Source: Erwinia sp. E_sp_B01_1
GTDB taxonomy: Bacteria; Pseudomonadota; Gammaproteobacteria; Enterobacterales; Enterobacteriaceae
Length of the DNA: 64,000 nucleotides
Assembly (NCBI RefSeq): GCF_036865545.1
Contig: NZ_CP142208.1
Span: forward strand, 3,100,001-3,164,000
Reading direction: 5' to 3'
Shown here: positions 43,964 to 58,398 of the stretch, one piece after another
How the letters are laid out: every line of letters begins with the position of its first letter
How positions within the stretch are numbered: the first letter of the stretch is position 1
The notes under the pieces: model-generated
The model's input: only the letters and a program-made list of their open reading frames with translations
Told to the model about the DNA's origin: nothing
The model's database searches: none
Program-made: the position numbers and the translations under genes

Positions 43964-45304
43964 TTAAAGCCAGCCTGCGAACCATTCCGGCATAACAAAT
44001 AAATTGAAATAGTTTACCAGCGCCATGATGCCGACAAACACGATGGAGACGGAAACCCATTGACGTGCATAAGGCAGGAACGGGATACCTATCACCGGCT
44101 TGATGAAGAACGGATGCGCAAAGGCCGAAATCAGAACCTGCGAAATCGACAGCGTGAGCGCCACATACCAGACGTTTGGATAGAGCCAGGTGGTTGCCAG
44201 TACCATCAGGACAATGACACTTGCCACTACATTCCAGTAGAACTCAACGTTGGTTCTTCCGTTAGCCTGCGAGATTGCGCCGGTCAGGCCGCCCATAGGG
44301 CGCAGCATACCGAACAGCAGCATCAGCGGGATCAGATGCGCCACCGCTTCATGTGCCGAACCGTAGAGTACGCGAACAATCACCGGAGAGAGGATACCGA
44401 TCGAGAGATACATCAGGCTGCTGAACAACATAATAACCAGCGTGCCCTTCAGGAACAGCTTCTGCAACTGAGCAGGCTCATGCTGCTTTTCTGCAAAGCG
44501 AGGCAGCGCCAGACGGTTGATGACCGGCGTCACCAGTTTCAGTGGTTGCAGCACCAGTTCTTTAGCCAGCGAGTAGACACCCAGCATATCCGCGCCCATC
44601 ACCTTGCCCACAATCAGTGAGTCAGCCTGAGTACGTAACTGATTAATTGTCTGCGAGCCGAGCTGATAAACGCCATATTTCATTGAGCTGAAGAAAGTCG
44701 CTTTATCGAACTCCAGCGTAGGCCGCCAGGATTTCTCACCAAACCAAATCATGCACAGAATGCGCATGGCGGCATTGGCAAATAATCCAAGAATAACGGC
44801 GGAAACATTTAAAGGAGAGAAATAAAGCAGTCCGACGGTTAAAGCAAAGGCCAGGAACTTGGTGATCATTTCTATTTTCGCCAGCAATACCATTCGCTTG
44901 GCTTTAATAAAATGCGCCTGATATTGCGACAGCGAACCCAGCACCAGAAAGTTCAGGCTGGTCAGCATAATCAGCCCGGTCAGTTGCGGCAGGTGATAGA
45001 AGTGCGCAATGGGCCAGGCGATGGCGATCAGCAGTAAACCGGTCAGCAGGCTGAGCAGAACGTTTACCCAGTAGATGGTGCTTTGCTCTTTACGGGTAAT
45101 GTTCTGACGATGCACGATGTAGCTGCTCATCCCCATATCCTGCAGCACCATCGCCACCGCCAGGATGGCGTTGATGATGGCCAGGATACCCAGCTCATGC
45201 GTTTCAAGTTTACGCGCCAGCACGCCCAGCTGGACTACCTGTAGCACCGCCGCAAAGCAAGTGCCTCCAAACAGCCATGCGGCCTGGTTCTTCAAACTAC
45301 TCAC
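43964..45304 (-). CDS. wzx: EPS repeat-unit flippase Wzx (AmsL-like)
   Basis: A 446-residue MOP-superfamily lipid-linked oligosaccharide flippase with about twelve spans (polysaccharide synthesis family PF13440-like). It begins SSLKNQAAWLFGGTCFAAVLQVVQLGVLARKLETHELG, and AQYQAHF-type residues in the second half match AmsL/WceX-type proteins. It is the last gene of the cluster, overlapping amsK by 4 bases, as in amylovoran and stewartan clusters, where wzx precedes galF. It is clearly different from the AT-rich O-antigen Wzx at 36780-38027. Confidence 0.9.
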   Translation of the reverse strand: MSSLKNQAAWLFGGTCFAAVLQVVQLGVLARKLETHELGILAIINAILAVAMVLQDMGMSSYIVHRQNITRKEQSTIYWVNVLLSLLTGLLLIAIAWPIAHFYHLPQLTGLIMLTSLNFLVLGSLSQYQAHFIKAKRMVLLAKIEMITKFLAFALTVGLLYFSPLNVSAVILGLFANAAMRILCMIWFGEKSWRPTLEFDKATFFSSMKYGVYQLGSQTINQLRTQADSLIVGKVMGADMLGVYSLAKELVLQPLKLVTPVINRLALPRFAEKQHEPAQLQKLFLKGTLVIMLFSSLMYLSIGILSPVIVRVLYGSAHEAVAHLIPLMLLFGMLRPMGGLTGAISQANGRTNVEFYWNVVASVIVLMVLATTWLYPNVWYVALTLSISQVLISAFAHPFFIKPVIGIPFLPYARQWVSVSIVFVGIMALVNYFNLFVMPEWFAGWL

Positions 45305-46524
45305 GCAAGACGCTCCAACAGTTGTGCCAGTTCCCGATAGGCTATGTGCTGATTAAATTCCGTTTCAACTTTCGCCCTGGCAGCCGACACTACCGGTGCC
45401 ACATCCACATTCCCCTGCGCCAGCTTGAGTAAAATTTCACTTAAAGCTTTGGCATCCCCTTCTGGCGCGAGCCAGCCAGAGACATTGTTCTCAATCAGTT
45501 CGGGAATGCCGCTGTGGTCACTCGAGACTACCGGCAGGCCTACGGCCATCGCTTCCATCAGCGCGACAGGTATGCCTTCCATATCGCCATCAGCCGCAGT
45601 CAGCGAAGGCAGAAGGAAAATGTCCGCTTCATCCAGATAGCGTTTAATCTCTTCCTGCGGCTTGAAGCCAACCATCTTCACGCAATCTTCCAGGTTGGCA
45701 GTGCGGATGGTGTTACGCAGCTCCTCTTCCATATCACCGTTACCGATGATGGTGTATTCGAAAAAGGCGCCCTGCGCTTTAAGGTACTTACAGGCTTCCA
45801 CCGCCACGCCCAGCCCTTTTTTCTCGGTGAGTCTGGCTACCGAGACAATACGCAGCGGGGCATGAAGTTCTTCGCGGACTTTCAGACTGAATTTTTCAGG
45901 TTCAATGCCCATACGGGTGACATGGATCTTCTCCGCCGGGCAGCCCATAGATATCAGCTTGTTTTCCCACAAATGGCTGATCGGCAGCAGCAGTTCGGTC
46001 TGCCGGAACAGGTTTTTATAATCCTGTTTGTGCTCGTCCAGAATATGGTGACGGGAGATATCCGCCCCGTGGAAAACGGTCGCCTGTTTCCCTTTCAACA
46101 CGTTGAGTTCACGCAGCTTATTAGCCAGCGCCCCGGCATAGCCAAAGTGCACCAGGAAAACATCAGCCTCAAAAGTCTGTTTCGCATTGGCTACAATGGC
46201 CGGCAGCAGTAATTTGCTGGATTGATCGCCATAACGCAAAACGTTGAACGATTTGAGGGTGGTTTTACTCAGGATTTTCGGCAGCACGATCTGCAGGCGC
46301 TGTTTGAGTTTTTCACCGTTGGTCTTCTTCTCTTCTGGCAGAAGATAGTGCGTTTTCTCTGCCAGATTGTAACGGTCGAACGCACCATGACGGTTAACCA
46401 GGTCGCCAGGAAACACCGAGATGATCTCAACGTCATACCCACTGTCGATAAAATAGGTGACCTGATTCAGCACGAATGTTTCAGACGAGACCGGAAATCG
46501 CATTGTGAAAAAAGTTATTTTCAT
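45301..46524 (-). CDS. amsK: Glycosyltransferase family 4, AmsK/WceK-like
   Basis: A 407-residue GT-B transferase. FHGADISRHH, RIVSVARLTEKKGLGVAVEACKYL and DGDMEGIPVALMEAMAVGLPVVSSDHSGIPELI (donor-site Glu motif) are characteristic. It lies between the pyruvyl transferase and Wzx, the amsK place. In amylovoran assembly AmsK adds a side-chain sugar; this is carried over from position. Overlap of 4 bases with wzx and a 4-base gap from amsJ show translational coupling. Confidence 0.88.
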   Translation of the reverse strand: MKITFFTMRFPVSSETFVLNQVTYFIDSGYDVEIISVFPGDLVNRHGAFDRYNLAEKTHYLLPEEKKTNGEKLKQRLQIVLPKILSKTTLKSFNVLRYGDQSSKLLLPAIVANAKQTFEADVFLVHFGYAGALANKLRELNVLKGKQATVFHGADISRHHILDEHKQDYKNLFRQTELLLPISHLWENKLISMGCPAEKIHVTRMGIEPEKFSLKVREELHAPLRIVSVARLTEKKGLGVAVEACKYLKAQGAFFEYTIIGNGDMEEELRNTIRTANLEDCVKMVGFKPQEEIKRYLDEADIFLLPSLTAADGDMEGIPVALMEAMAVGLPVVSSDHSGIPELIENNVSGWLAPEGDAKALSEILLKLAQGNVDVAPVVSAARAKVETEFNQHIAYRELAQLLERLA

Positions 46525-46528
46525 CGGT

Positions 46529-47779
46529 TCACCCTAAAATCTTGACGACATCTTCGGTGATTTTGTTCCCCAATACCCTCTCCAGCTCAACCGCGCTATC
46601 AACCTGTTGTTTCACAGCATCATAATTATCCAGGATACCATGCACTTTAGCGATCAGGCTGCCATCCATCAGGCTCTTCACATCCGTGGCCATCTCTGGC
46701 AGGCCGAGCTGGTTCATGACGCCGAGTGATTTGTGTTCATAATTGATCGCCACGGCTGGCGTTCCGAAGTTCATGGAAATGATCGCAGAGTGCAGACGAG
46801 TACCAATGGTTAAATGGCTTTGTGCCAACAGAATACCCAGTTCAAGGTCATTAAATTCATCCATGATGACGTGATACTTATCTTTCTGAACCACATGATC
46901 GCGCAGCGTCATCGCCACCATACGGTCATCTTTATCATAGCTGTCGATGCCGGTACAGGTAGACAGGGCGACTACCTGATACCCTCTGTCGATCATCGCA
47001 TTGATCACCTTACCAAACGCCATCTCATATTCCTGCTGCGTAACCCCAAGACGCTTGTCGAAAGGAGCCAGTACACGCACGGTTATGGCGATAGTTTTTG
47101 TTGAGGCGATCAGATTCTGCCAGTGCATCAGGTTGTGGCTGGGTTCATCCACCGAACGGGCACGGACCAGGAAAGCGGTATCAGCTCCCTTCGCCACTTT
47201 TTCGGTGGTGATGTTGCCCTGCTTCATCATCTCCAGGCTGACGCTTTCGCGCAGCACCAGGCTGTTGACCCGTGCAAAGACAAAGTTAGCAATTTCATTG
47301 AATCTTGGTTTCTGGAATGGCCCAACGCTGTGACCAACCATGTAGACAGGCTTCTTCGCCAGCAGCGCACACAACGCGTGCTCAAACTGTAATGGACCAT
47401 AGAGGTCAACAAAGAACGAGCCGCCGACCTGGATTACCGCATCGTACTGCTTCAGCTTATCGGTAAAGTCCTGCAGGTATTTGGGGATAGCAAAAGATTT
47501 GAAAATCCCCTTGCCGCTGATATGCGCCATCATAATTTTTGGCATCAGGCGACGTTTGACCTTATCAGTCAGCTTATTTTTTCCTTTTTTGGTCTCAAGA
47601 AAAAGTTCGTCCGGCAATATTTCCTGCTGCAGCAAATAGCCTGAGCTGGTCGGATAGCGGCTGATTACATCAATTTCCAGATCCTTCCTTGCGAGGTTAA
47701 GCGAATCAATAAGCCCGCGTAAAATAGCGCCATCACCACGATTACCACACGTATGATTGCCAACTAACAAAATCTTCAT
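46529..47779 (-). CDS. amsJ: Polysaccharide pyruvyl transferase family protein, AmsJ/WceJ-like
   Basis: A 416-residue protein of the polysaccharide pyruvyl transferase family (PF04230), thought to put a pyruvate ketal on a side-chain galactose using phosphoenolpyruvate. Features: LLVGNHTCGNRGDGAILRGLIDSL (conserved N-terminal GNxGD region), QVGGSFFVDLYGP and LTIGTRLHSAIISMNFGTPAVAINYEHK (a strongly conserved TRLHSAI block). It lies next to amsK. Pyruvylation is documented for amylovoran and gives the polymer acid groups; for this strain it is inference. Confidence 0.88.
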   Translation of the reverse strand: MKILLVGNHTCGNRGDGAILRGLIDSLNLARKDLEIDVISRYPTSSGYLLQQEILPDELFLETKKGKNKLTDKVKRRLMPKIMMAHISGKGIFKSFAIPKYLQDFTDKLKQYDAVIQVGGSFFVDLYGPLQFEHALCALLAKKPVYMVGHSVGPFQKPRFNEIANFVFARVNSLVLRESVSLEMMKQGNITTEKVAKGADTAFLVRARSVDEPSHNLMHWQNLIASTKTIAITVRVLAPFDKRLGVTQQEYEMAFGKVINAMIDRGYQVVALSTCTGIDSYDKDDRMVAMTLRDHVVQKDKYHVIMDEFNDLELGILLAQSHLTIGTRLHSAIISMNFGTPAVAINYEHKSLGVMNQLGLPEMATDVKSLMDGSLIAKVHGILDNYDAVKQQVDSAVELERVLGNKITEDVVKILG

Positions 47780-47964: not shown

Positions 47965-50181
47965 TTATCCTTTGAGATCGAAATAAGGCATCGCTACCTG
48001 TTTACCGTTAATAACCATTGAGATGTAGCCTGCGGCTTTACTGGTATCCACCTGTTCCGGTTTTAAAAGCCGTGATTCCAGTAACAGATCGCCCTGCTCA
48101 TTCGCGCCAATTCCCGCTTTACCGTTATGCAGGGTAAAACGCTGTACGGCCCGGTGCGCGTCATCACCCGTTGGCGCACTGGCAAAATCCATCTTGCTGT
48201 CGAAACGGGCACATTTGCCGGTCAGGAAGCGGTCTTTTGCGGTGGTTTTCATCAACACACCGGCAGAAGCCATCCAGCCCGCCAGCTTAACGAAAACGCG
48301 CGTGTCCGTGTCGTGTGGCGTGACATACATCACATCCACAATCGGACTTGCCCCTTCGGCATGCCAGCTGGCCTCAAATTTATGCGTTTTACGCTGCAGA
48401 CTGATGATCGCTTTGCCGCCGGTGGTCTTACCGTCCACCACTTTATCGAGCGGGCTTTTGTCCGTGCCGTTACTGAAGGAAGACTGGCCAAAAATCTCGA
48501 TTTCCCAGTTATCGCCCACTTCCGGGGTATAAATGTTGCCGAGTTCGTACCATTTTTCCTGATTACTGCTGTTATTGATGCGGTAACGCGAGGTCAGGTA
48601 GTTGTATTTCATACTGCCATCGGCCGCGATGCCGTAGGATTCCACGCGGGTGGAGCCTCTCTCCCACGCGCTCAGCCACGGCTTGCCCTGCGAGGAGTTA
48701 TCAATCGAGCTACCGGATTGCAGATTGGTCTGACGGGTGTTCAGACGCGTGTTGTGGGCAATCAGCGGGTTTTTACACCCTTCCAGGCTCATTGCATCCA
48801 TGATCCACTGACCATTGGAGATGTTGCCCGGATGTTCGCAGTGTTCAATCCAGCCGTTATGGATCAGGGACTGACCGCAACGCTCCAGATTCAGTACCAT
48901 TCCTTCAGTACAGTACTGCGCGTTAAAGTTAGAGAGTTCGATCGCCGTGCTGTGATCCCATTTGCCTTTCGGCCGGTTAGACCAGACGGATTTGATTACA
49001 TCGCCGGTACAATGCGTGGCGTACCACTGATCGATTTTACAATCCAGCGTATCCATCAGGCTCAGCGAAGTGCCACCCAGGCGGGAGAAACGCAACGACG
49101 CGCCACGGAAGAACTGGCCGCCTTCACATTTATTGAGGAAAAAGCCCTGCTTGTTCGGCTGGCTGTCAGTTCTGCCGTTAACGATCAGGTTACTGACTTC
49201 CACCCAGCGGGTATTTACCTTAAAGATAAAATCAGACTGCCCGTCTGAAACAAGCGTGGTGGCCGGGAAATAGCCAAAGTTCACCATCGCGCCAGAGAGA
49301 CGGAAGAAGCGGGTTTCCGCCGCTGAAAAATCACAGGCGCTGACAAAGAAAGTGCCCGCCGGGAACTGAATGCAGATCTGCTGATTGGCTTTCTGCGACC
49401 AGTTGTACATGGCTTTGATCGCCGGAGCCGTATCGGTTTTACCGTCGTCGATAGCGCCAAAATCAAACAGCGTCAGGCGATTGAAGTCTTCCACCACACG
49501 GCGCCAGTGGAAACCCTCACCGGCAAAGATAACGCCGCCGTCATCCGTCGCCGCCTCAAGCGTGCCGACAAACTCGCCGCCGCCCTCTTCCTGACCTTCA
49601 TGCCAGCTGCTCAGCTTGACCTTGGCGCCGGTAAACAGCGGACGCGTTTTCCGCAGGTCATCCGCAGAGGCGATCTCACCGATCAGCTGATACCCGGCTG
49701 GCTGGGATAAACGCTGGCTGAAATTGCTGGCACCAGGACGCGTAACGTCAGCGATGTTAAACAACGCTTTGCCACTGTCATCCACGACTGCCATTGAGTG
49801 TGCAGGATTAGCAATCAGCGCCGCATTGTCGTCAATAAATTGCTGGAAATTGCCTTTATTAAGCGCAATCGGCTGCTCAATTTTCGACAATTTACCATTA
49901 GCATTTTTCAGGAACACATCGATCAGGTTGCCTGCCTGAGTGGGATCTGTTCCGGCCTTGCCGATGTAAAGCTTACCGTTGAAATTCTTCCAGAAGCGGT
50001 CTGGCATGGTGTAGATATTTTCTGGCGTCAGGATTGGCACATCCTGTTTCGGCACATCCCCTGCCGGGACATCTTTAAGCGAAACAGCGGCCTTTTTGTC
50101 AGCCGCCTGGCTGGAAAACGAGCTCACAGAAAGGGCTGCAAGAATCGATGAGAAGGCGGTTATCAGTTCTCTTCTTTTCAT
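47965..50181 (-). CDS. amsF: Exported tailspike-like EPS-modifying protein (AmsF/WceF-like)
   Basis: A 738-residue exported protein. A signal peptide (MKRRELITAFSSILAALSVSSFSSQA) begins with a twin Arg, so Tat or Sec export is possible. Residues 51-147 resemble the phage P22 tailspike head-binding domain: NGKLYIGKAGTDP (residues 68-80) against P22 NGKIYIGQIDTDP, and HSMAVVDDSGKAL against HSMAIYDANGSQV. Residues 187-206 have the GGG-F linker pattern seen in phage tailspikes, then TLFDFGAIDDGKTDTAPAI begins a pectate-lyase-3 type right-handed beta-helix (about 236-560), followed by a beta-rich C-terminal part. The P. stewartii homologue WceF was reported to be a trimeric, tailspike-like stewartan hydrolase. 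Here it is inside the EPS operon and should trim or remodel the polymer. Catalytic residues cannot be fixed from sequence. Confidence 0.88.
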   Translation of the reverse strand: MKRRELITAFSSILAALSVSSFSSQAADKKAAVSLKDVPAGDVPKQDVPILTPENIYTMPDRFWKNFNGKLYIGKAGTDPTQAGNLIDVFLKNANGKLSKIEQPIALNKGNFQQFIDDNAALIANPAHSMAVVDDSGKALFNIADVTRPGASNFSQRLSQPAGYQLIGEIASADDLRKTRPLFTGAKVKLSSWHEGQEEGGGEFVGTLEAATDDGGVIFAGEGFHWRRVVEDFNRLTLFDFGAIDDGKTDTAPAIKAMYNWSQKANQQICIQFPAGTFFVSACDFSAAETRFFRLSGAMVNFGYFPATTLVSDGQSDFIFKVNTRWVEVSNLIVNGRTDSQPNKQGFFLNKCEGGQFFRGASLRFSRLGGTSLSLMDTLDCKIDQWYATHCTGDVIKSVWSNRPKGKWDHSTAIELSNFNAQYCTEGMVLNLERCGQSLIHNGWIEHCEHPGNISNGQWIMDAMSLEGCKNPLIAHNTRLNTRQTNLQSGSSIDNSSQGKPWLSAWERGSTRVESYGIAADGSMKYNYLTSRYRINNSSNQEKWYELGNIYTPEVGDNWEIEIFGQSSFSNGTDKSPLDKVVDGKTTGGKAIISLQRKTHKFEASWHAEGASPIVDVMYVTPHDTDTRVFVKLAGWMASAGVLMKTTAKDRFLTGKCARFDSKMDFASAPTGDDAHRAVQRFTLHNGKAGIGANEQGDLLLESRLLKPEQVDTSKAAGYISMVINGKQVAMPYFDLKG

Positions 50182-50295: not shown

Positions 50296-51330
50296 TTAAA
50301 CCAGTGAGAGCCAGTTTTCTTTAATCACCCTGCCGTCAAACTTCAGCGACGTGGTTTTGGTCTTCTCACTCATGGCATAGAACAGCTCGTCGTTGTGCGC
50401 GAGCTGGTTCATTTTTTCAATAAAGGTGGCACGGTCATTCATCTTCACCAGGAAGCCATCTTCATTGTTATTGATAATTTCCTGCGGGCCGGTTGGGCAG
50501 TCGTAAGCGATGACCGGTAATGACCAGGATTTTGCTTCCAGCAAGACCAGCGGCAAGCCTTCGTAACGTGAGGTCATCAGTGCCATATCACTGTCGCGAT
50601 AGTAGTCATTGATGTTGGACACTTTGCCCACAAAGGAGACGCTGTTGGTGATTTTCAACGCGCCGGCTTTGGCGATCAGCTCATCCTTCAGCTCTCCGTC
50701 GCCGGCAATCACCAGTTTCCAGTCCGGGTTAGTCGCCACAAACCCCTGCCAGACGTCCAGCAGCAGATCGAACCCTTTCTGGTGGTCCAGACGGCCCACA
50801 GCCAGCGCCTGACGGTGGCGCTCAGTTCGCTGATAGTTTTTGAATACCACAGGATTGGGAATGGTTTTGCTGGGGATCCCCCACTGCGTAAAGACGCTGT
50901 CGTCTTTATCGGTCAGCACAATGACGCGATCGTAATAGCGCAGCATGAGATATTTGAGGAATTTAATCGGCTTGCTGAAGGAGTTAATGGCAATGTGTTC
51001 GCAGGCGTAGGTCTTAGCCCTTTTCTTTTTCAGCGACAGGATGTTCCACAGGGCGAACATCACGCTGAGGCGACCCATGCTGATCAGAAATACCGCATCA
51101 AAGTTCTGCTGATTAATGCGTTTTACCGCGCTGCGAATCGGGTTCTTCTCGCCCGCGAAGCTGACAATTTGCTTCACTTTCTCAAACGGATAGAAGGGCT
51201 TACCTGAGCCTTCAAGCGAGTAGATCACCACTTCATGTTCGTCGCCCAGGCATTCGGACATGAAGTTACAAATATTTTCGGTTCCGGCGTAGGAATAGGC
51301 GTCTTTAATCACCAGCACTATTTTTTTCAT
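50296..51330 (-). CDS. Glycosyltransferase family 4, EPS cluster (AmsD-like)
   Basis: A 344-residue GT-B fold transferase. KKIVLVIKDAYSYAGTENICNFM, ALAVGRLDHQKGFDLLLDVWQGF and SRYEGLPLVLLEAKSWSLPVIAYDCPTGPQEII (donor-site Glu motif) are clear. Length and fold fit AmsD/WceM, an EPS backbone galactosyltransferase. In E. amylovora the order as recalled is amsB-amsD-amsE, whereas here a GT2 gene lies upstream. Sugar specificity is not readable. It starts 122 bases after that GT2. Confidence 0.85.
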   Translation of the reverse strand: MKKIVLVIKDAYSYAGTENICNFMSECLGDEHEVVIYSLEGSGKPFYPFEKVKQIVSFAGEKNPIRSAVKRINQQNFDAVFLISMGRLSVMFALWNILSLKKKRAKTYACEHIAINSFSKPIKFLKYLMLRYYDRVIVLTDKDDSVFTQWGIPSKTIPNPVVFKNYQRTERHRQALAVGRLDHQKGFDLLLDVWQGFVATNPDWKLVIAGDGELKDELIAKAGALKITNSVSFVGKVSNINDYYRDSDMALMTSRYEGLPLVLLEAKSWSLPVIAYDCPTGPQEIINNNEDGFLVKMNDRATFIEKMNQLAHNDELFYAMSEKTKTTSLKFDGRVIKENWLSLV

Positions 51331-51452: not shown

Positions 51453-52205
51453 TCATCTGTGCTTAAGCGTAAACAAAACGCCATTGACCATGTACCAGAC
51501 GTAATAGTAATACACTTTTAGTGGATTGTTTTTATAGATAAATCTTAATAAATCGAGGTGCCACTTCGCCGCTTTGTTTTTGTTGCGCGAAAGCGAATCA
51601 CCCAGCTCATAGTAAATAACAAGATTCTGATTTATTACCCTGGCCTGTTTGTACTGATCGAACAGTTCATAGAGGAACAAAAAGTCCTCATGCCCCTTTT
51701 TCTGGAACATAAGGTTGCGGGATGGACGACGATAGCAAACCGAAGAGAAGCAGATGCGGAACTGCTTTTTCACGAAGTTCTCTTTCATCAGGTAAGGCTT
51801 GCCGTAGGTCACATCATAGGCTTTGGTGCGGGATTTGTAGCCGTAATGGGAAATCACCAGATCGTCGCCGGCGGCCAGCGCCTGAACCTGCAACATCAGT
51901 TTATCTTTTTCCCACTCATCATCACTGTCCAGAAAAGCAATGATCTCTTCTTTAGCCGCTTTTAATCCGACGTTGCGGGTTTCAGCCGCGCCCATATTGA
52001 CCGCGTTGTTAAGCACGGTGATCCGGGGATCGCGGCAGTGCTCCTGCACAAAGGCCAGCGAGTCATCAGTGGATTTATCGTTAATCAGATAGATGTGCCA
52101 GTCTGTCCAGGTTTGATCAAGTACCGATTGTACTGCCCGCAGAACCGTATTCCGCGCGTTGTACATAGGGATGATAATGCCCACTGTGCCAATTTGATTA
52201 GTCAT
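51453..52205 (-). CDS. Glycosyltransferase family 2, EPS cluster (AmsE-like)
   Basis: A 250-residue GT2 transferase. GIIIPMYNARNTVLRAVQSVLDQTWTDWHIYLINDKSTD and IIAFLDSDDEWEKDKLMLQ (DxD region) define the GT-A fold; the C-terminal YYYYVWYMVNG is hydrophobic. Size is close to AmsE/WceN (around 270). It is preceded by two strong terminator-like hairpins, so it may be attenuated relative to the upstream genes. The position before the AmsD-like gene reverses the order recalled for amylovoran clusters. Confidence 0.82.
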   Translation of the reverse strand: MTNQIGTVGIIIPMYNARNTVLRAVQSVLDQTWTDWHIYLINDKSTDDSLAFVQEHCRDPRITVLNNAVNMGAAETRNVGLKAAKEEIIAFLDSDDEWEKDKLMLQVQALAAGDDLVISHYGYKSRTKAYDVTYGKPYLMKENFVKKQFRICFSSVCYRRPSRNLMFQKKGHEDFLFLYELFDQYKQARVINQNLVIYYELGDSLSRNKNKAAKWHLDLLRFIYKNNPLKVYYYYVWYMVNGVLFTLKHR

Positions 52206-52321: not shown

Positions 52322-53458
52322 CTATCGGGTCAATCTGAACGTGTCGGAAACGGTGTATCCCACTACGGCCTGTTTCACCTGAATGGTGTTGTAGTAGAGG
52401 TAATAAACCAGAATGAAGAGGATCATCGTATACATTGGCAGCCTGAGAATTTTTTTGGAATAGAGCAACAAAGTGGCCAGGACTACCGGTTCGATCTGCA
52501 GCAGATAGTTCGACAGACGTGCACCCGATGGATAGTTGTAGAAGAAGATCCTCACCGCACCACCAATCGCGAAGATTAAGATGATCAGGTAGTTAAAGCT
52601 GTACGCCTGCCAGTCCGTCTCTTTCAGCTTTCTTGAGAGCATGAAGTAGCAGAAGACGCAGACCAGAATAATGTTTTTGAAGTTAGCAATCGAGAATACC
52701 GAAGTCGGTTCCCCGGCTGTATCCCCGTTACTGTAGCCTGCCGCTCGTTCCCCCAGCGAACCAAGGTGCGAGGAGATCAGCAGAACGAAGTTGTTCCCCC
52801 CTATTTTAGAAAGCGGCACGCTCAATATAATAATAGCGATCGGAATCAGAGGTGACTTTCTGATATAGAGGAACGGAATAATGGTTACCGCGATAACAGC
52901 CGTGTTATGGCTGAAGAACGACAGCAGGAAGAAGGCAAAGGCCCAAAGTTTTTCACCCTGGAACAGATAATAAACAAAGCCGAGGAAAAATGCCGAGCTC
53001 AGACCAAATCGAATCTGGTTCATATCTTTATTGATATAAACGTGCGCTGAATAGAGCGCCAGAGTCAGGATTGGAAAAGGAGAGAGCTTCTTAAAGAAGA
53101 ACGCATTAATCGAAACGGCAATGGTACAATAGATAAAGATCAGGATGTCGGCATTCTTCGACACCACACTGGAGAGAAAGGCGATCAGGAAGGTCATCGG
53201 CTCGTAACGGAAGAAGGCTATCGTCTTCGCGACGCCATTCACTTCAATTCGTTGCAGGAAGTCCTGATAAAAGCTGCGATATTGATAGTCATCCATTCCC
53301 GTTCCGAGTCCGCGGATACCGCCAAAGACAATCAGAACCAGAACGCACATCAAAAACAGGTAAGTGGAGATTTTTTGAGTCTTGTTATCCTCCTTCGTAA
53401 TAACTTCCAGTATGGAAATTAATGCGATAAACCCTGAAATATACCAGTATGGAGACAT
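52322..53458 (-). CDS. EPS polymerase, EpsG family (AmsC/WceL-like)
   Basis: A 378-residue polytopic inner-membrane protein with about ten hydrophobic segments. It has the EpsG signature INKDMNQIRFGLSSAFFLG followed by FFSHNTAVIAVTIIPFLY, and a GIRGLGTGMDDYQYRSFYQDF periplasmic-loop motif. It is the only polytopic protein of the operon other than Wzx, so it is the probable Wzy-like polymerase of the EPS repeat unit. It lies between two GT2 genes and is followed by terminator-like hairpins. Confidence 0.82.
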   Translation of the reverse strand: MSPYWYISGFIALISILEVITKEDNKTQKISTYLFLMCVLVLIVFGGIRGLGTGMDDYQYRSFYQDFLQRIEVNGVAKTIAFFRYEPMTFLIAFLSSVVSKNADILIFIYCTIAVSINAFFFKKLSPFPILTLALYSAHVYINKDMNQIRFGLSSAFFLGFVYYLFQGEKLWAFAFFLLSFFSHNTAVIAVTIIPFLYIRKSPLIPIAIIILSVPLSKIGGNNFVLLISSHLGSLGERAAGYSNGDTAGEPTSVFSIANFKNIILVCVFCYFMLSRKLKETDWQAYSFNYLIILIFAIGGAVRIFFYNYPSGARLSNYLLQIEPVVLATLLLYSKKILRLPMYTMILFILVYYLYYNTIQVKQAVVGYTVSDTFRLTR

Positions 53459-53586: not shown

Positions 53587-54498
53587 CTACCGTGACTTGC
53601 TTCCCATCCGCTCTTTAAATTTATCTTTCAGGCGGTTGATGAAGTAGGTGCGGTTGTCTTTGTTGGTCAGGAAAAAGTAGCGCGCAAAACTGACGCTGGC
53701 CTGTAAGGATTTACCGTCCATCTTGTAGCGCAAAGGCAATTTATAGGCCTTATAAGTGTTGATATCACGCTGCGTCAGGTAGGGCTTCATGTTGTCCAGC
53801 CAGAACTGCGAATACTTTACGGATTCGCCTTTGTGTTTGGAGCCGAATTTCGTGATCAGATGATAGTTAGCCAGCGGCTGGGCAATCATCACAAACTCGT
53901 AGCCCTTTTTATCTGCACGGATACAGAAGTCGTAATCCTGATGACGGATGTACTTAGGGTCGAACTTAATATCCTGCGCATATTCGCGTTTCATCACCAG
54001 CGTACTGGTCTGGATGAAACCGTAGCAGCCGAAAAGATACTCAGCGACAGTCTCGGTGCGGGCGACAGGCTGCATCGGCATGACCTTGAGGAACTGGCCA
54101 TCCTGGATAATGTTTACCTGGCTGAAAATAATAAACTTCTGCTTACCCTGAGCTTCCAGCTTCTGGATCTCCTGCAGCGACGTCAGCAGCTTATCCTGAT
54201 GCCACTCATCATCCGCATCCAGGAAGCTGATGTAATCGCCGGTCGCCAGTTCGATGCCTTTATTACGCGCACCGGAACCGTTGAGTTTTTCCTGCGACAG
54301 TACCAGGTTAATCTTGAGTTTGCTGTACTTTTCAGATCCAACCACGGCGGCCAGTTTGTCGGCATCCGCTGATTTATCATCAATGATGATTACTTCGAAA
54401 TTCTGATACGTCTGTGCAGCCACGCAGTCCAGCGTGGTCACAATGGATTCGGATGCATTGTATGCAGGAATGACAATCGAAAAGAAAATATCCTTCAT
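53587..54498 (-). CDS. Glycosyltransferase family 2, EPS cluster (AmsB-like)
   Basis: A 303-residue GT2 transferase. FSIVIPAYNASESIVTTLDCVAAQTYQNFEVIIIDDKSA and ISFLDADDEWHQDKLLTSLQEIQKL (DxD) are seen, with a C-terminal IRADKKGYEFVMIAQPLANY block. Length matches AmsB/WceB, a backbone galactosyltransferase. The ATG at 54498 is chosen because AAGGTG lies about 6 bases upstream; an in-frame GTG three codons earlier overlaps that site. It is preceded by two large hairpins at 54531-54608. Confidence 0.85.
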   Translation of the reverse strand: MKDIFFSIVIPAYNASESIVTTLDCVAAQTYQNFEVIIIDDKSADADKLAAVVGSEKYSKLKINLVLSQEKLNGSGARNKGIELATGDYISFLDADDEWHQDKLLTSLQEIQKLEAQGKQKFIIFSQVNIIQDGQFLKVMPMQPVARTETVAEYLFGCYGFIQTSTLVMKREYAQDIKFDPKYIRHQDYDFCIRADKKGYEFVMIAQPLANYHLITKFGSKHKGESVKYSQFWLDNMKPYLTQRDINTYKAYKLPLRYKMDGKSLQASVSFARYFFLTNKDNRTYFINRLKDKFKERMGSKSR

Positions 54499-54530
54499 TT
54501 CAGGCACCTTTTAAACGTCCTAACGGGCAA

Positions 54531-54618: not shown

Positions 54619-56802
54619 TTAGCCTTTTGCTTCCTGCTTGTACTGGTAGTCGTAGTAGTCATAACCGTAGCCATAGGCGTTGGTCGCTTTACGGACTACA
54701 GCATTGAGGATGACGCCTTTGATTTCGATACCGTTCTGGGCGAAGCGTTTGTAACTGATATCCACTTCTTTCAGGGTATTGGTCTCGAAGCGCGCAACCA
54801 TCAGCGAGGTTCCTGCCAGCTTACCAATAATGGAAGCATCGGTGACCGCCAGAATAGGTGGGGTATCGATCAGGACCAGGTCGTAGTTCTTGCTTGCCCA
54901 CTCCAGCAGCTCGTTCATGCGGTTGTGCATCAACAGTTCTGAAGGGTTTGGCGGAACCTGACCGCGTGCAATGAAATCGAAACCGTATTCACCGCGCTGG
55001 ATCATCGCCGGAGTGAAGGCCGTTTTACCGGACAGCACGTTAGAGAGGCCCACTTTGCCACTCGCACCCAACAGCTCATGCGTATAGCCACGGCGCATGT
55101 CACCATCGATGAACAGCACTTTCTGACCCGCGTTAGCCACCAGCGTTGCCAGATTAGAACAGATAAAGGTTTTACCAATACCCGGGCTGGCACCGGTGAT
55201 CATCAGGATGTTGTTTTTAGCTTCCATCATCGCAAAGTGCAGGCTGGTACGCAGACTACGAATCGCTTCAATGGAGAGGTCAGTTGGGTTGCCCAGCGCC
55301 AGCAGCGTGTTATGCGGATCGGTTTTACCCTGCACGTTACGTTTGGCCAGAGCTTCAGCATCTTTCTTACGCTGCCATTCTGACAGCGGCACGCTGGCGT
55401 AAACGCTCATACCCAGCTCTTCCAGCTGATCCGGACGGTCAATTCCGTGGTGGAACAGCGCTTTCAACAGGATATAACCCACTGAGACGAACAGGCCCAG
55501 AATCATGCTGGCGGCGATCAGCAGCAGTTTCTTCGGTGCTACCGGGCTGCCTGCCGTTTCGGCGTTGTCCACGATGCGAACGTCACCCACGGTGCTGGCT
55601 TTACTGATATCCAGTTCCTGCTGGCGATTCAGCAGCTGCATGTAGATTTCCTGACCTGCCTGCACATCACGCGTCAGACGCACGATATCCTGCTGGGTCT
55701 GAGGCATATTGCTGATTTTCTGGTTCAGCTTTTTCTGCTCGTTTTCCAGCGTCTGGCGTTTTTCTAACAGCGCACGGTAAGTCGGGTGATCCTTTTTGAA
55801 CAGCTGAGAAACTTCAGCTTCGCGGAAGGTCAGTTCGTTCAGCTGGCTCTGAATGCTGACGGAAGAGTCCAGCGCAGATTTCGCTTCCAGCGACATATCT
55901 ACAGAGTCATTCTGACGGCGATAGGTGTTGAGCTTGTCTTCAGCGGAATCCAGCTTGCCACGCACGTCCGGCAGCTGTTTCTGCAGGAAGATCAGGCTTT
56001 TCTGCGCTTCTTCAGATTTGCGCTCAACGTTCTGACCAACATAGTTAGTGATGATCTGATTCAGCACCTGGCTAATCAGTACCGGGTCTTCACCGGTATA
56101 GACCAGACCCAGAACACCGGTGTCTTTGCCTTTGTCTGCGACATTCAGGTTAGCTACAACCATCTTGATCGCCTGCAGTTCAGAAAGTTTAGTAGCTGTG
56201 AAGTCGGTGCCAGCATCGATACCCTCAATGGATTTAACCATGATGGTCACGCCTTTCTGGTTTTCCACTTCGCCGACTTTACCTTTGAACAACTCATCGC
56301 CGTCTTTGCTTACGGTGTAGCTGTCAGGGCCAGTCACTTCCACTTCTACATTGCGTTTTTCCCACTCCATCGGCACGGTCAGTAAAGGAATATCCAGCCT
56401 GCCCGGCTTGTTGCCGAACATGCGGGAAAGGCCTTCACCGATCACCGGGAAGTAGTTTTGCTCTACCAGAACATCCAGGCCGAGGTCCTTGACCGTTTTT
56501 CCGATAACCAGACGCGAGGTCACAATCTGCACTTCAGTGTCAGAAGTTGGCTGCGAGTTTGGCATCATTTGGGTCAGGTCGTTCAGCACCGTGTTAGGGT
56601 TCTTACTTTCTACCTGCACCATCGCATCCGCACTGTAAATCGGCGTAGCGAACAGGCTGTAGAGCGTGCCCAGCAGCATGAACAGCGCTGTGACTGCAAC
56701 AATTACCCAACGATGGTCTACAAGTTGTCCCACAAGGTGCGCCAGATCCCATCCACTGGAATCGTCTTTTAGCGCTGACGGTGCCTTACTTTGTATTTTC
56801 AT
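54619..56802 (-). CDS. wzc: Polysaccharide co-polymerase / tyrosine autokinase Wzc (AmsA-like)
   Basis: A 727-residue inner-membrane protein controlling EPS chain length and export with Wza. The N-terminal Wzz-type domain is bounded by WVIVAVTALFMLLGTLYSLF and LLLIAASMILGLFVSVGYILL; the large periplasmic region contains coiled-coil stretches (around residues 260-390). The cytoplasmic BY-kinase has Walker A in ITGASPGIGKTFICSNLA, Walker A' in VLFIDGDMRRG and Walker B in YDLVLIDTPP. It ends in a Tyr-rich tail (YGYGYDYYDYQY, seven Tyr) for autophosphorylation. The ATG at 56802 is taken; a TTG four codons upstream is less likely. It begins 12 bases after the wzb stop. Confidence 0.97.
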   Translation of the reverse strand: MKIQSKAPSALKDDSSGWDLAHLVGQLVDHRWVIVAVTALFMLLGTLYSLFATPIYSADAMVQVESKNPNTVLNDLTQMMPNSQPTSDTEVQIVTSRLVIGKTVKDLGLDVLVEQNYFPVIGEGLSRMFGNKPGRLDIPLLTVPMEWEKRNVEVEVTGPDSYTVSKDGDELFKGKVGEVENQKGVTIMVKSIEGIDAGTDFTATKLSELQAIKMVVANLNVADKGKDTGVLGLVYTGEDPVLISQVLNQIITNYVGQNVERKSEEAQKSLIFLQKQLPDVRGKLDSAEDKLNTYRRQNDSVDMSLEAKSALDSSVSIQSQLNELTFREAEVSQLFKKDHPTYRALLEKRQTLENEQKKLNQKISNMPQTQQDIVRLTRDVQAGQEIYMQLLNRQQELDISKASTVGDVRIVDNAETAGSPVAPKKLLLIAASMILGLFVSVGYILLKALFHHGIDRPDQLEELGMSVYASVPLSEWQRKKDAEALAKRNVQGKTDPHNTLLALGNPTDLSIEAIRSLRTSLHFAMMEAKNNILMITGASPGIGKTFICSNLATLVANAGQKVLFIDGDMRRGYTHELLGASGKVGLSNVLSGKTAFTPAMIQRGEYGFDFIARGQVPPNPSELLMHNRMNELLEWASKNYDLVLIDTPPILAVTDASIIGKLAGTSLMVARFETNTLKEVDISYKRFAQNGIEIKGVILNAVVRKATNAYGYGYDYYDYQYKQEAKG

Positions 56803-56814
56803 GGATATTCTCAA

Positions 56815-57249
56815 CTATCGGCTTAATGCGTTGACCCATTTCTGGGCAGCGTTTTCGAGTGTTCCGTACACGGCTTCAAAGGCATCGCGGCTTTTCTTGT
56901 AAGGATCCGCTATTTCCTGTTGATTGAGCCAGTGGCCAAATAACATGGTCTTGCCACGTACGGAAGGGTTGATGCGATTGACTGAATCGACATGCCTTTT
57001 TTCCATCACCAGGATCAGATCGTATTCCTGGCACATGTCTGAGGTCAGCTGCTGGGCGACATGCCCATCCAGCGAAACCCCGTGTTTATCAGCCACGCTG
57101 CTTGCTGTCCCATCGGCTTCTTTGCCGACAAGAGCACCAAGCCCGGCGGACTCGACTTTTTTATCTGGCAGCGCCGATTTGAGTAACCGCTCCCCGGTGG
57201 GAGAGCGGCAGATGTTTCCGACACAGACCACTAGGATTGAATTAATCAT
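56815..57249 (-). CDS. wzb: Low-molecular-weight protein tyrosine phosphatase Wzb (AmsI)
   Basis: A 144-residue cytoplasmic phosphatase that dephosphorylates the tyrosine tail of Wzc; the cycle is needed for polymer assembly. ILVVCVGNICRSPTGERLL holds the CX5R phosphate loop (Cys9, Arg15), and EIADPYKKS near residue 115 gives the catalytic Asp. Length is typical. It lies between wza (16 bases upstream) and wzc (12 bases downstream), the standard order. Confidence 0.96.
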   Translation of the reverse strand: MINSILVVCVGNICRSPTGERLLKSALPDKKVESAGLGALVGKEADGTASSVADKHGVSLDGHVAQQLTSDMCQEYDLILVMEKRHVDSVNRINPSVRGKTMLFGHWLNQQEIADPYKKSRDAFEAVYGTLENAAQKWVNALSR

Positions 57250-57264
57250 AATGTTCTCCAGTCA

Positions 57265-58398
57265 TTACCAGTTATGAATTGCCTGAACGTTACGCGTTGC
57301 ATCGTAGACACCACTGATGGTTGGGACCAGCTGCGAAATCACGCGGTTCCAACGGGCCAGAGGCGTAGCCGTAACGTAAACGATGTCATAAGGCTGCAGC
57401 TGGAATTCTGAGCCCATAACCATCGCCGAAGCGTCTTTGGTATTCAGCTGATAAATGTTCGCAATCTTAGAGCGATTCTGTCCTTTGATCGGACGGATTA
57501 CGAAGACACCGGTTGCATCGGCCACAGTCTGATCCATGCCCTGAGCATTCCCCAGCGCTTCCGCCAGCGTCATGCCGCTGCGGTCCATTTTCATGGTGGC
57601 TGGCTGTTTCACTTCGCCCATAACGAAGATTTTCAGATCGTCGTTACGAGGAACGTAGAGAATATCGCCCGGGTAGAGCAGGTGGTTCTGGGACAGGTCG
57701 CCATTTTGCATCAGCGCCTGCAGTGAGATAGGCATTTCGCTACCGTTGTGGGTCAGCACAACATTCCGCCAGTCGGCGTCAGCTGTCAGACCGCCAGCGG
57801 CGTTTACGGCATCAAGAATAGTCAGAGGAACGTTAGTAATAGGCTGCTGACCGGAGGTGGTCACCTCACCCGTGACATAGGCTTTCTGAGATTTAAAGGA
57901 AGCCACGCTGACATCGACCTGTGGCGTTTCAATATACTGAGCCAGGCGGTTAGCAATCTCGTTGCGAACTTCCTGCACGGTACGGCCCGCTACACGGACG
58001 CGTCCGATGTAAGGATAAAAGATGGTGCCGTCAGAGTGTACCCAGTTACCGGTATCGCTGGCGCTACGGTACTGACCGGCTGGCGTGGTCAGTTCAGGGT
58101 GATCCCAGACGGTGACGGTCAGCACATCGCCAATACCAATATGGTATTCATAGCTCTGCAACTCATTCTGCAGCTGTGGGTTTTGCTGCGCGACGTTCGG
58201 TTTTGGTCGCATTTGCTCAACCAGACCTGGCGTCATTGGGAAGACATTCACGTACTTATCAATATCAAAGTCGCTATCCTGCTGCTTAATGACATCTTTT
58301 CCGCTGGTGGAGAGAGAACTACCCGGTGTAATAGTACAGCCGGAAAGGAGTGCTGCCGATACCAACAGGGGTATCAATTTCGTTTTGATTGTAATCAT
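57265..58398 (-). CDS. wza: Outer-membrane polysaccharide export lipoprotein Wza (AmsH)
   Basis: A 377-residue outer-membrane lipoprotein that forms the octameric channel for EPS. The signal peptide ends in a lipobox, LLSGC, with Cys21 the lipidation site. The polysaccharide export domain (residues 85-175; [22 protein letters not shown]) is followed by SLBB domains ([19 protein letters not shown] and [26 protein letters not shown]) and a C-terminal amphipathic helix ([24 protein letters not shown]) that spans the outer membrane. It has about 290 non-coding bases before it, with its own promoter candidate. Confidence 0.97.

Follow-up and report, generated by a model that had tools for sequence, protein, structure and literature searches.

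Architecture and setting of the gene

The window (the whole 64,000-nucleotide stretch of Erwinia sp. E_sp_B01_1 DNA that was analysed) carries a gene that is the WceF/AmsF orthologue of a stewartan/amylovoran-type exopolysaccharide (EPS) operon. The gene sits inside a Wzy-type operon, in which the Wzy and Wzx proteins were assigned by position only. An earlier note on this DNA had placed it in an EPS operon, and this placement is borne out by the surrounding wza, wzb-like and wzc-like genes, glycosyltransferase genes and WcaK-like pyruvyl transferase gene (Table 1). It does not lie among phage structural genes, and a reading as a prophage gene was ruled out by the EPS genes all around it.

Table 1 Features of the hydrolase gene and its operon neighbours. 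Counts refer to 58 operon-type GTDB loci selected by amsF; the last column gives the counterpart that we presume for each gene.
Feature	Position	Strand	Basis	Presumed counterpart
wza, polysaccharide export protein	57265..58398	-	NF011658 685 bits	
wzb-like tyrosine phosphatase	56815..57249	-	NF007520 E 1.6e-64, below equivalog cut-off	
wzc-like tyrosine kinase	54619..56814	-	NF008568 1052.9 bits, just below cut-off 1068	
Glycosyltransferase	53587..54507	-	NCBIfam; present in 57/58 loci	AmsB-like
Putative Wzy polymerase	52322..53458	-	Position; present in 40/58 loci; no NCBIfam match	AmsC-like
Family 2-type glycosyltransferase	51453..52205	-	NCBIfam; present in 57/58 loci	AmsE-like
Family 4-type glycosyltransferase, next upstream of hydrolase	50296..51330	-	NCBIfam; present in 58/58 loci	AmsD-like
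WceF/AmsF orthologue, whole gene	47965..50181	-	738 aa + stop; full-length 6tgf match	
Twin-arginine-type export signal, residues 1-28 (MKRRELI...)	50098..50181	-	Sequence; end by homology to WceF	
Variable linker, residues 29-47	50041..50097	-	dN/dS and identity comparison	
P22-type head-binding domain, residues 48-148	49738..50040	-	PF09008	
Linker partly retained in headless relatives, residues 149-169	49675..49737	-	Alignment, sequences	
Tailspike neck domain, residues 170-235	49477..49674	-		
Beta-helix body, residues 236-530	48592..49476	-	Homology to 6tgf; phrog_4250	
Beta-sandwich and stem, residues 531-738	47968..48591	-	Homology to WceF	
WcaK-like pyruvyl transferase, next downstream of hydrolase	46529..47779	-	NF007452 722 bits; present in 52/58 loci	AmsJ-like
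WcaL-like glycosyltransferase	45301..46524	-	TIGR04005 E 8.4e-154, below cut-off; present in 57/58 loci	AmsK-like
Putative Wzx flippase	43964..45304	-	Position; present in 55/58 loci	AmsL-like

The encoded protein has a tailspike-type head, neck and beta-helix body behind an export-type signal, which confirms what had been read from the letters alone. Specifically, residues 48-148 match the Head_binding profile PF09008 with 67.3 bits (E 1.8e-18; curated cut-off 24 bits), and a comparison with 1lkt shows that the head shares the fold of the P22 head-binding domain. The claimed likeness to that domain is thus a true P22-type fold, a chance motif resemblance being ruled out by the same two results; given these, neither an unrelated fold nor a profile match confined to unrelated families was found. 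The best solved structure is that of Pantoea stewartii WceF (6tgf), which is colinear over the full length (residues 1-737 against 1-735, 1195 bits). Chains of the P22 tailspike match the head region only (1lkt, E 1.8e-10), other spikes match the neck region, and the phrog_4250 family ('EPS depolymerase') matches residues 129-735 (E 5.8e-196). The neck, the body and the full-length 6tgf match uphold the beta-helix tailspike architecture that had been proposed behind the head.

The segment ahead of the head, which the earlier note had taken for a cellular signal peptide, carries what appears to be a twin-arginine-type motif, recognized in the window protein by motif pattern and by eye only. Its RR-x-hydrophobic motif is present in all 53 operon genes compared, none having been left out for a missing MKRR. 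From these matches, the window protein can be regarded as an orthologue of P. stewartii WceF. No catalytic residues can be named in it; the terms 'active site' and 'catalytic' are absent from the main text of the WceF structure paper (PMC7949094).

Relation to WceF and other known systems

The core of this finding, namely the fold, the P22-like head, stewartan hydrolysis and the guess at a phage origin, is largely in print for WceF already (Irmscher 2021, PMC7949094). That paper describes a crystal structure, a Tat signal and a native trimer, with a head like that of P22 (rmsd 2.6) and a neck like the neck domain of CBA120 tailspike 2 (rmsd 1.1). WceF hydrolyses stewartan slowly, to single repeat units, in keeping with the earlier note, which names the P. 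stewartii homologue as a stewartan hydrolase, and wceF mutants make larger EPS (PMC7949094, citing earlier work). The authors find it tempting to suppose acquisition during coevolution with phages. Trimer stability is low and constructs without the head aggregate, and the paper concludes that a stable WceF trimer requires the full set of N-terminal domains; the P22 tailspike itself keeps its trimer stability without the head (PMC7949094). According to the discussion, the part of the head in trimer stabilization could not be assessed there. The suggestion that the role of the head is open therefore holds for stabilization, which that work left unassessed, but not for the aggregation of headless constructs or the need for all N-terminal domains, which were already reported (PMC7949094).

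The window protein is 68% identical to P. stewartii WceF over the whole protein (locus L025), and the two share a full-length colinear match with signal, head, neck and beta-helix as well as the same slot between a glycosyltransferase gene and a pyruvyl transferase-like gene. Erwinia amylovora AmsF (P0078), which presumably belongs to the amylovoran operon, also retains head, neck and body and is 64% identical, although its head is more diverged (49%). The P22 head-binding domain (1LKT) has the fold and core residues in common with the window head; it differs in being 32% identical, in that the window head is preceded by an export signal and in the phage-conserved patch, which is replaced in the window head. 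Phage EPS depolymerases of phrog_4250 (for example, those of PhiEaH1, Special G and AH06) share the neck and body family at 30-46% identity among the 60 listed of 357 records. Unlike the window protein, they have other N-termini among the records listed, show no export signal by eye in the N-termini inspected and, in the body tree, group apart from the operon clade.

The window protein is a well-preserved member of a published family and adds modest new evidence on the question of the head. The enzyme and its tailspike likeness were known already; what is added here is the selection on the head, its changed surface and its absence from a few lineages, the last of which may already be in print.

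Replacement of a phage-conserved patch in the head

Individual columns were compared after aligning 14 phage heads with 53 of the operon type, the phage heads being ten picked from 60 listed of 183 records, together with P0105-P0107 and L106. Identity to P22 is 50-74% for eleven of the 13 other phage-type heads and lower for the remaining two (Kc237, 45%; KpZh1, 32%). For 16 operon heads, identity to P22 or P0105 is 24-37%. P22 residues P13, F23, G29, G34, D39, N45, G56, Q63, P64 and M90 are kept in at least 48 of the 53 operon-type heads. In contrast, G71, P73, Y75, N76, G77, Q78, K81 and T84 are each found in 12-14 of the 14 phage heads and in at most three of the 53 operon-type heads, and further P22 residues, including E52, E54, N105, L107, Y109 and P111, are likewise kept in at most three. 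The letters NGQ do occur somewhere in 9 of the 53, but at other columns than the phage NGQ. Conversely, W64 and F67 (window numbering) are present in 53 of 53 operon-type heads and in at most one of the 14 phage heads. This column pattern shows a fold core that has been retained while the phage-conserved patch has been replaced.

Among 198 genomes of the family, 16 contain PF09008. The scores form two groups, ten matches lying at 178.8-225.4 bits and six lying at 60.9-76.8 bits; one genome has two pieces besides. The window head scores 71.2 bits in that survey and is the single PF09008 match in its genome, where P22 gp4 (PF11650) has no match.

These residue changes suggest that the head is most likely no longer a virion dock. 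Its conserved fold would also fit a head that still docks to virions, in which case the enzyme would equip P22-like phages that come by, or a prophage resident in the genome. However, the phage-conserved patch is lost, an export signal precedes the head and the genome has no gp4 match. Retained docking thus appears unlikely, and we give the arming of phages hardly any weight.

Selection on the head

Values of dN/dS were obtained for 53 operon genes that carry the head, one in the window and the others from 52 loci, using the 112 of 1378 pairs with a whole-gene dS of 0.1-1.0. Five of the 58 operon-type loci were left out for having no listed open reading frame (ORF) of at least 700 aa (L031, headless; L041 and L051, split; L052, shortened; L077, unlisted), and L034 was excluded because it contained a stop or X. 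The median dN/dS is 0.043 for the head (quartiles 0.031-0.128; 110 of the 112 pairs gave a head value) and 0.062 for the beta-helix (quartiles 0.038-0.089), values taken from non-independent pairs with a high median dS (0.63-0.87 in the head, neck, helix and C-terminal part). In the same set of pairs, the medians are 0.097 for the neck, 0.079 for the C-terminal part and 0.149 for the first linker (residues 29-47), which also has the lowest median identity among seven regions (0.444). When all pairs are taken, conservation of the head is slightly below that of the beta-helix (median identity 0.733 versus 0.790). By these estimates, the head codons are under purifying selection and the head is not drifting freely.

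Relatives that lack the head

Thirteen proteins of the body family have no PF09008 match: P0086 (Pantoea sp. A4), P0091 (named Kalamiella sp.), P0092 and ten Bdellovibrio-type proteins (P0089 and P0094-P0102), of which seven are named Bdellovibrio, from six strains, and three are unnamed. All retain the signal, neck and body, and the RR of the signal is present in each, in 12 by invariant alignment columns and in P0097 from its sequence. The letters NFSQ remain in P0094 where the operon-type linker stands. At locus L031 (Pantoea sp. A4), all eleven window operon genes were found by tblastn, with the hydrolase aligned only over residues 148-737. No other unbroken headless gene occurs among the 58 operon-type GTDB loci; in four of the remaining loci, the hydrolase gene is split or shortened, or no long ORF is listed for it. 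Those four (L041, L051, L052 and L077, from Erwinia/Pantoea) may be assembly faults; L052 is named as a stink-bug symbiont and L077 as a Candidatus species.

Because headless relatives with signal, neck and body exist, the need for the head that was found for WceF in the laboratory is probably not general. These relatives are ready-made natural comparison proteins.

Bdellovibrio SKB1291214 has two copies of headless AmsF, and in a published account AmsF of this strain is named among presumed transfers (PMC5941755). The 79 loci obtained from the best 80 of 89 relatives include none from Bdellovibrio. The headless Bdellovibrio AmsF is a possible prey-EPS enzyme gained by horizontal transfer. This branch leads us to suspect that a predator gained an enzyme with which to attack the slime of its prey.

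Evolutionary origin

An unrooted body tree of 70 chosen rows (residues 170-737, L106 included) places the operon genes, headless forms and Bdellovibrio-type proteins in one clade (support 100/100), apart from the tree's phage bodies. Within this clade, the Bdellovibrio-type proteins (94/89) form the sister group of the Erwiniaceae genes (98/85). Two separate nested positions are taken by P0086 and P0091/P0092, and an exclusive clade of head-bearing rows is rejected (AU p 4.2e-62); AU groups were named after the tree was seen, which makes this and the following p values somewhat too small. In a weakly supported head tree, operon heads form one side at only 69/94, with long branches.

A tailspike origin is a sensible reading of the architecture. 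The earlier note had gone further and proposed the domestication of a whole tailspike. Consistent with this proposal, there are phage-type proteins that share both the head and the body family: the unnamed P0105-P0107 combine head, neck and body without a signal, and L106 carries the head and the same body family on a viral contig. However, P0105-P0107 are rejected as sister of the cellular clade (AU p 0.0005, in a test of these three), the sister group of the Erwiniaceae genes in the body tree is the headless Bdellovibrio type, and one split that separates all phage bodies from cellular ones survives the AU test (p 0.126). A one-step capture of an entire tailspike is thus plausible but not proven, and the direction of the transfer is not proven either.

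The headless sister group and the rejection of P0105-P0107 would also be expected if no whole tailspike had been captured, with the exported body coming first or with head and body joined separately by domain shuffling. We regard such separate assembly as a serious contender, somewhat short of even odds. It agrees with the finding that phage bodies usually stand behind other N-termini, as, among the 60 listed of 357 phage records, no match starts before residue 119, and only L106 matches from residue 47 among the viral-contig ORFs listed. Yet headlessness also occurs within the Erwiniaceae clade, as the rejected head-bearing clade indicates, so that loss in Bdellovibrio is equally simple, and NFSQ at the linker place of P0094 fits loss. 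A reverse transfer, in which phages took the EPS-hydrolase body from bacteria, would be compatible with the single split and the unrooted tree. We consider it improbable, since the head-binding fold, neck and trimeric spike would make sense as phage parts first, and the phage bodies sit on much longer branches than the operon clade.

A probable role for the head

Our preferred reading is that the window protein is an exported trimeric hydrolase that trims the strain's own EPS, with a P22-type head that is most likely no longer a virion dock but a trimer cap (probability roughly 0.75). The protein would be exported, probably by the twin-arginine route, and by homology to WceF would form a trimeric beta-helix. 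It may then slowly cleave the strain's own EPS, presumably of the same substrate class as that of WceF, such that chain length would be trimmed and the matrix thinned. The head would now most likely cap and stabilize a weak trimer. A cap is the simplest account because WceF aggregates without its head, the head is under purifying selection and the phage patch is lost; because headless relatives retain signal, neck and body, this cap is not needed everywhere. It offers a testable answer to a question left by PMC7949094, namely why the head is kept.

Selection on the head, together with its replaced patch, suggests that the head works for the cell. The main rival to the cap role is a new cell-envelope partner (the export or EPS machinery, or the outer membrane), through which the head would anchor or steer the enzyme. 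Purifying selection, the replaced patch and the new invariant residues fit this arrangement, but a self-contained cap fits the same pattern, no partner is known and one headless enzyme lies inside a complete operon; we therefore hold a partner to be unlikely. Less likely still is an inert relic, carried along since nothing has removed it. Several lineages do lack the head while keeping the remainder, one of them in a complete EPS operon, and the P22 trimer is stable without this domain (PMC7949094). Against a relic, however, the head has a dN/dS about as low as that of the beta-helix, W64 and F67 are common to all operon-type heads and missing from phage heads, and headless WceF constructs aggregate (PMC7949094).

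A fuller scenario is offered tentatively, and is doubtful as a whole. A virion-attachment domain would have been re-purposed when export was added, after which the virion-facing patch would have been replaced and new invariant residues fixed, so that the domain would now serve the cell as a module for docking or capping an enzyme that trims EPS. The module would then have been dropped in lineages where the enzyme is put to another use, above all in predatory Bdellovibrio, in which the enzyme may act on prey slime.

Other spike bodies

A second cellular group of tailspike-type EPS-depolymerase bodies occurs in Erwiniaceae (L058-L076, L079 and L080, and the plasmid loci L119 and L120). Its members are about 35-40% identical to the window protein, with no head match and no signal seen by eye; L061 is split. 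In 9 of 21 GTDB loci, as well as at L120 on a P. dispersa plasmid, the gene directly upstream comes from one autotransporter cluster. The one such gene tested against Pfam encodes a GDSL-lipase autotransporter; it comes from L119, a record that is also L066. Both L119 and L120 lie outside an EPS operon. No literature on a Pantoea autotransporter with a depolymerase and GDSL was found in a search mostly without subscription papers.

The genome of the window contains two more spike bodies, G000:C1:1854609-1856354(+) and C1:2856843-2858630(-) (L138 and L139), with 39% and 35% identity; the match of the first is interrupted by one TAA, although an ORF of 619 aa is present. Both are of Erwinia-phage type (MIEVNSFAEL-like start) and are probably prophage-borne, because each lies near a phage-lysozyme-like gene (by eye). 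In Erwinia endophytica, which has its own AmsF (P0008), a second protein (P0108), on a contig of equal length, combines this body family with a prophage tail-fibre N-terminus (PF08400).
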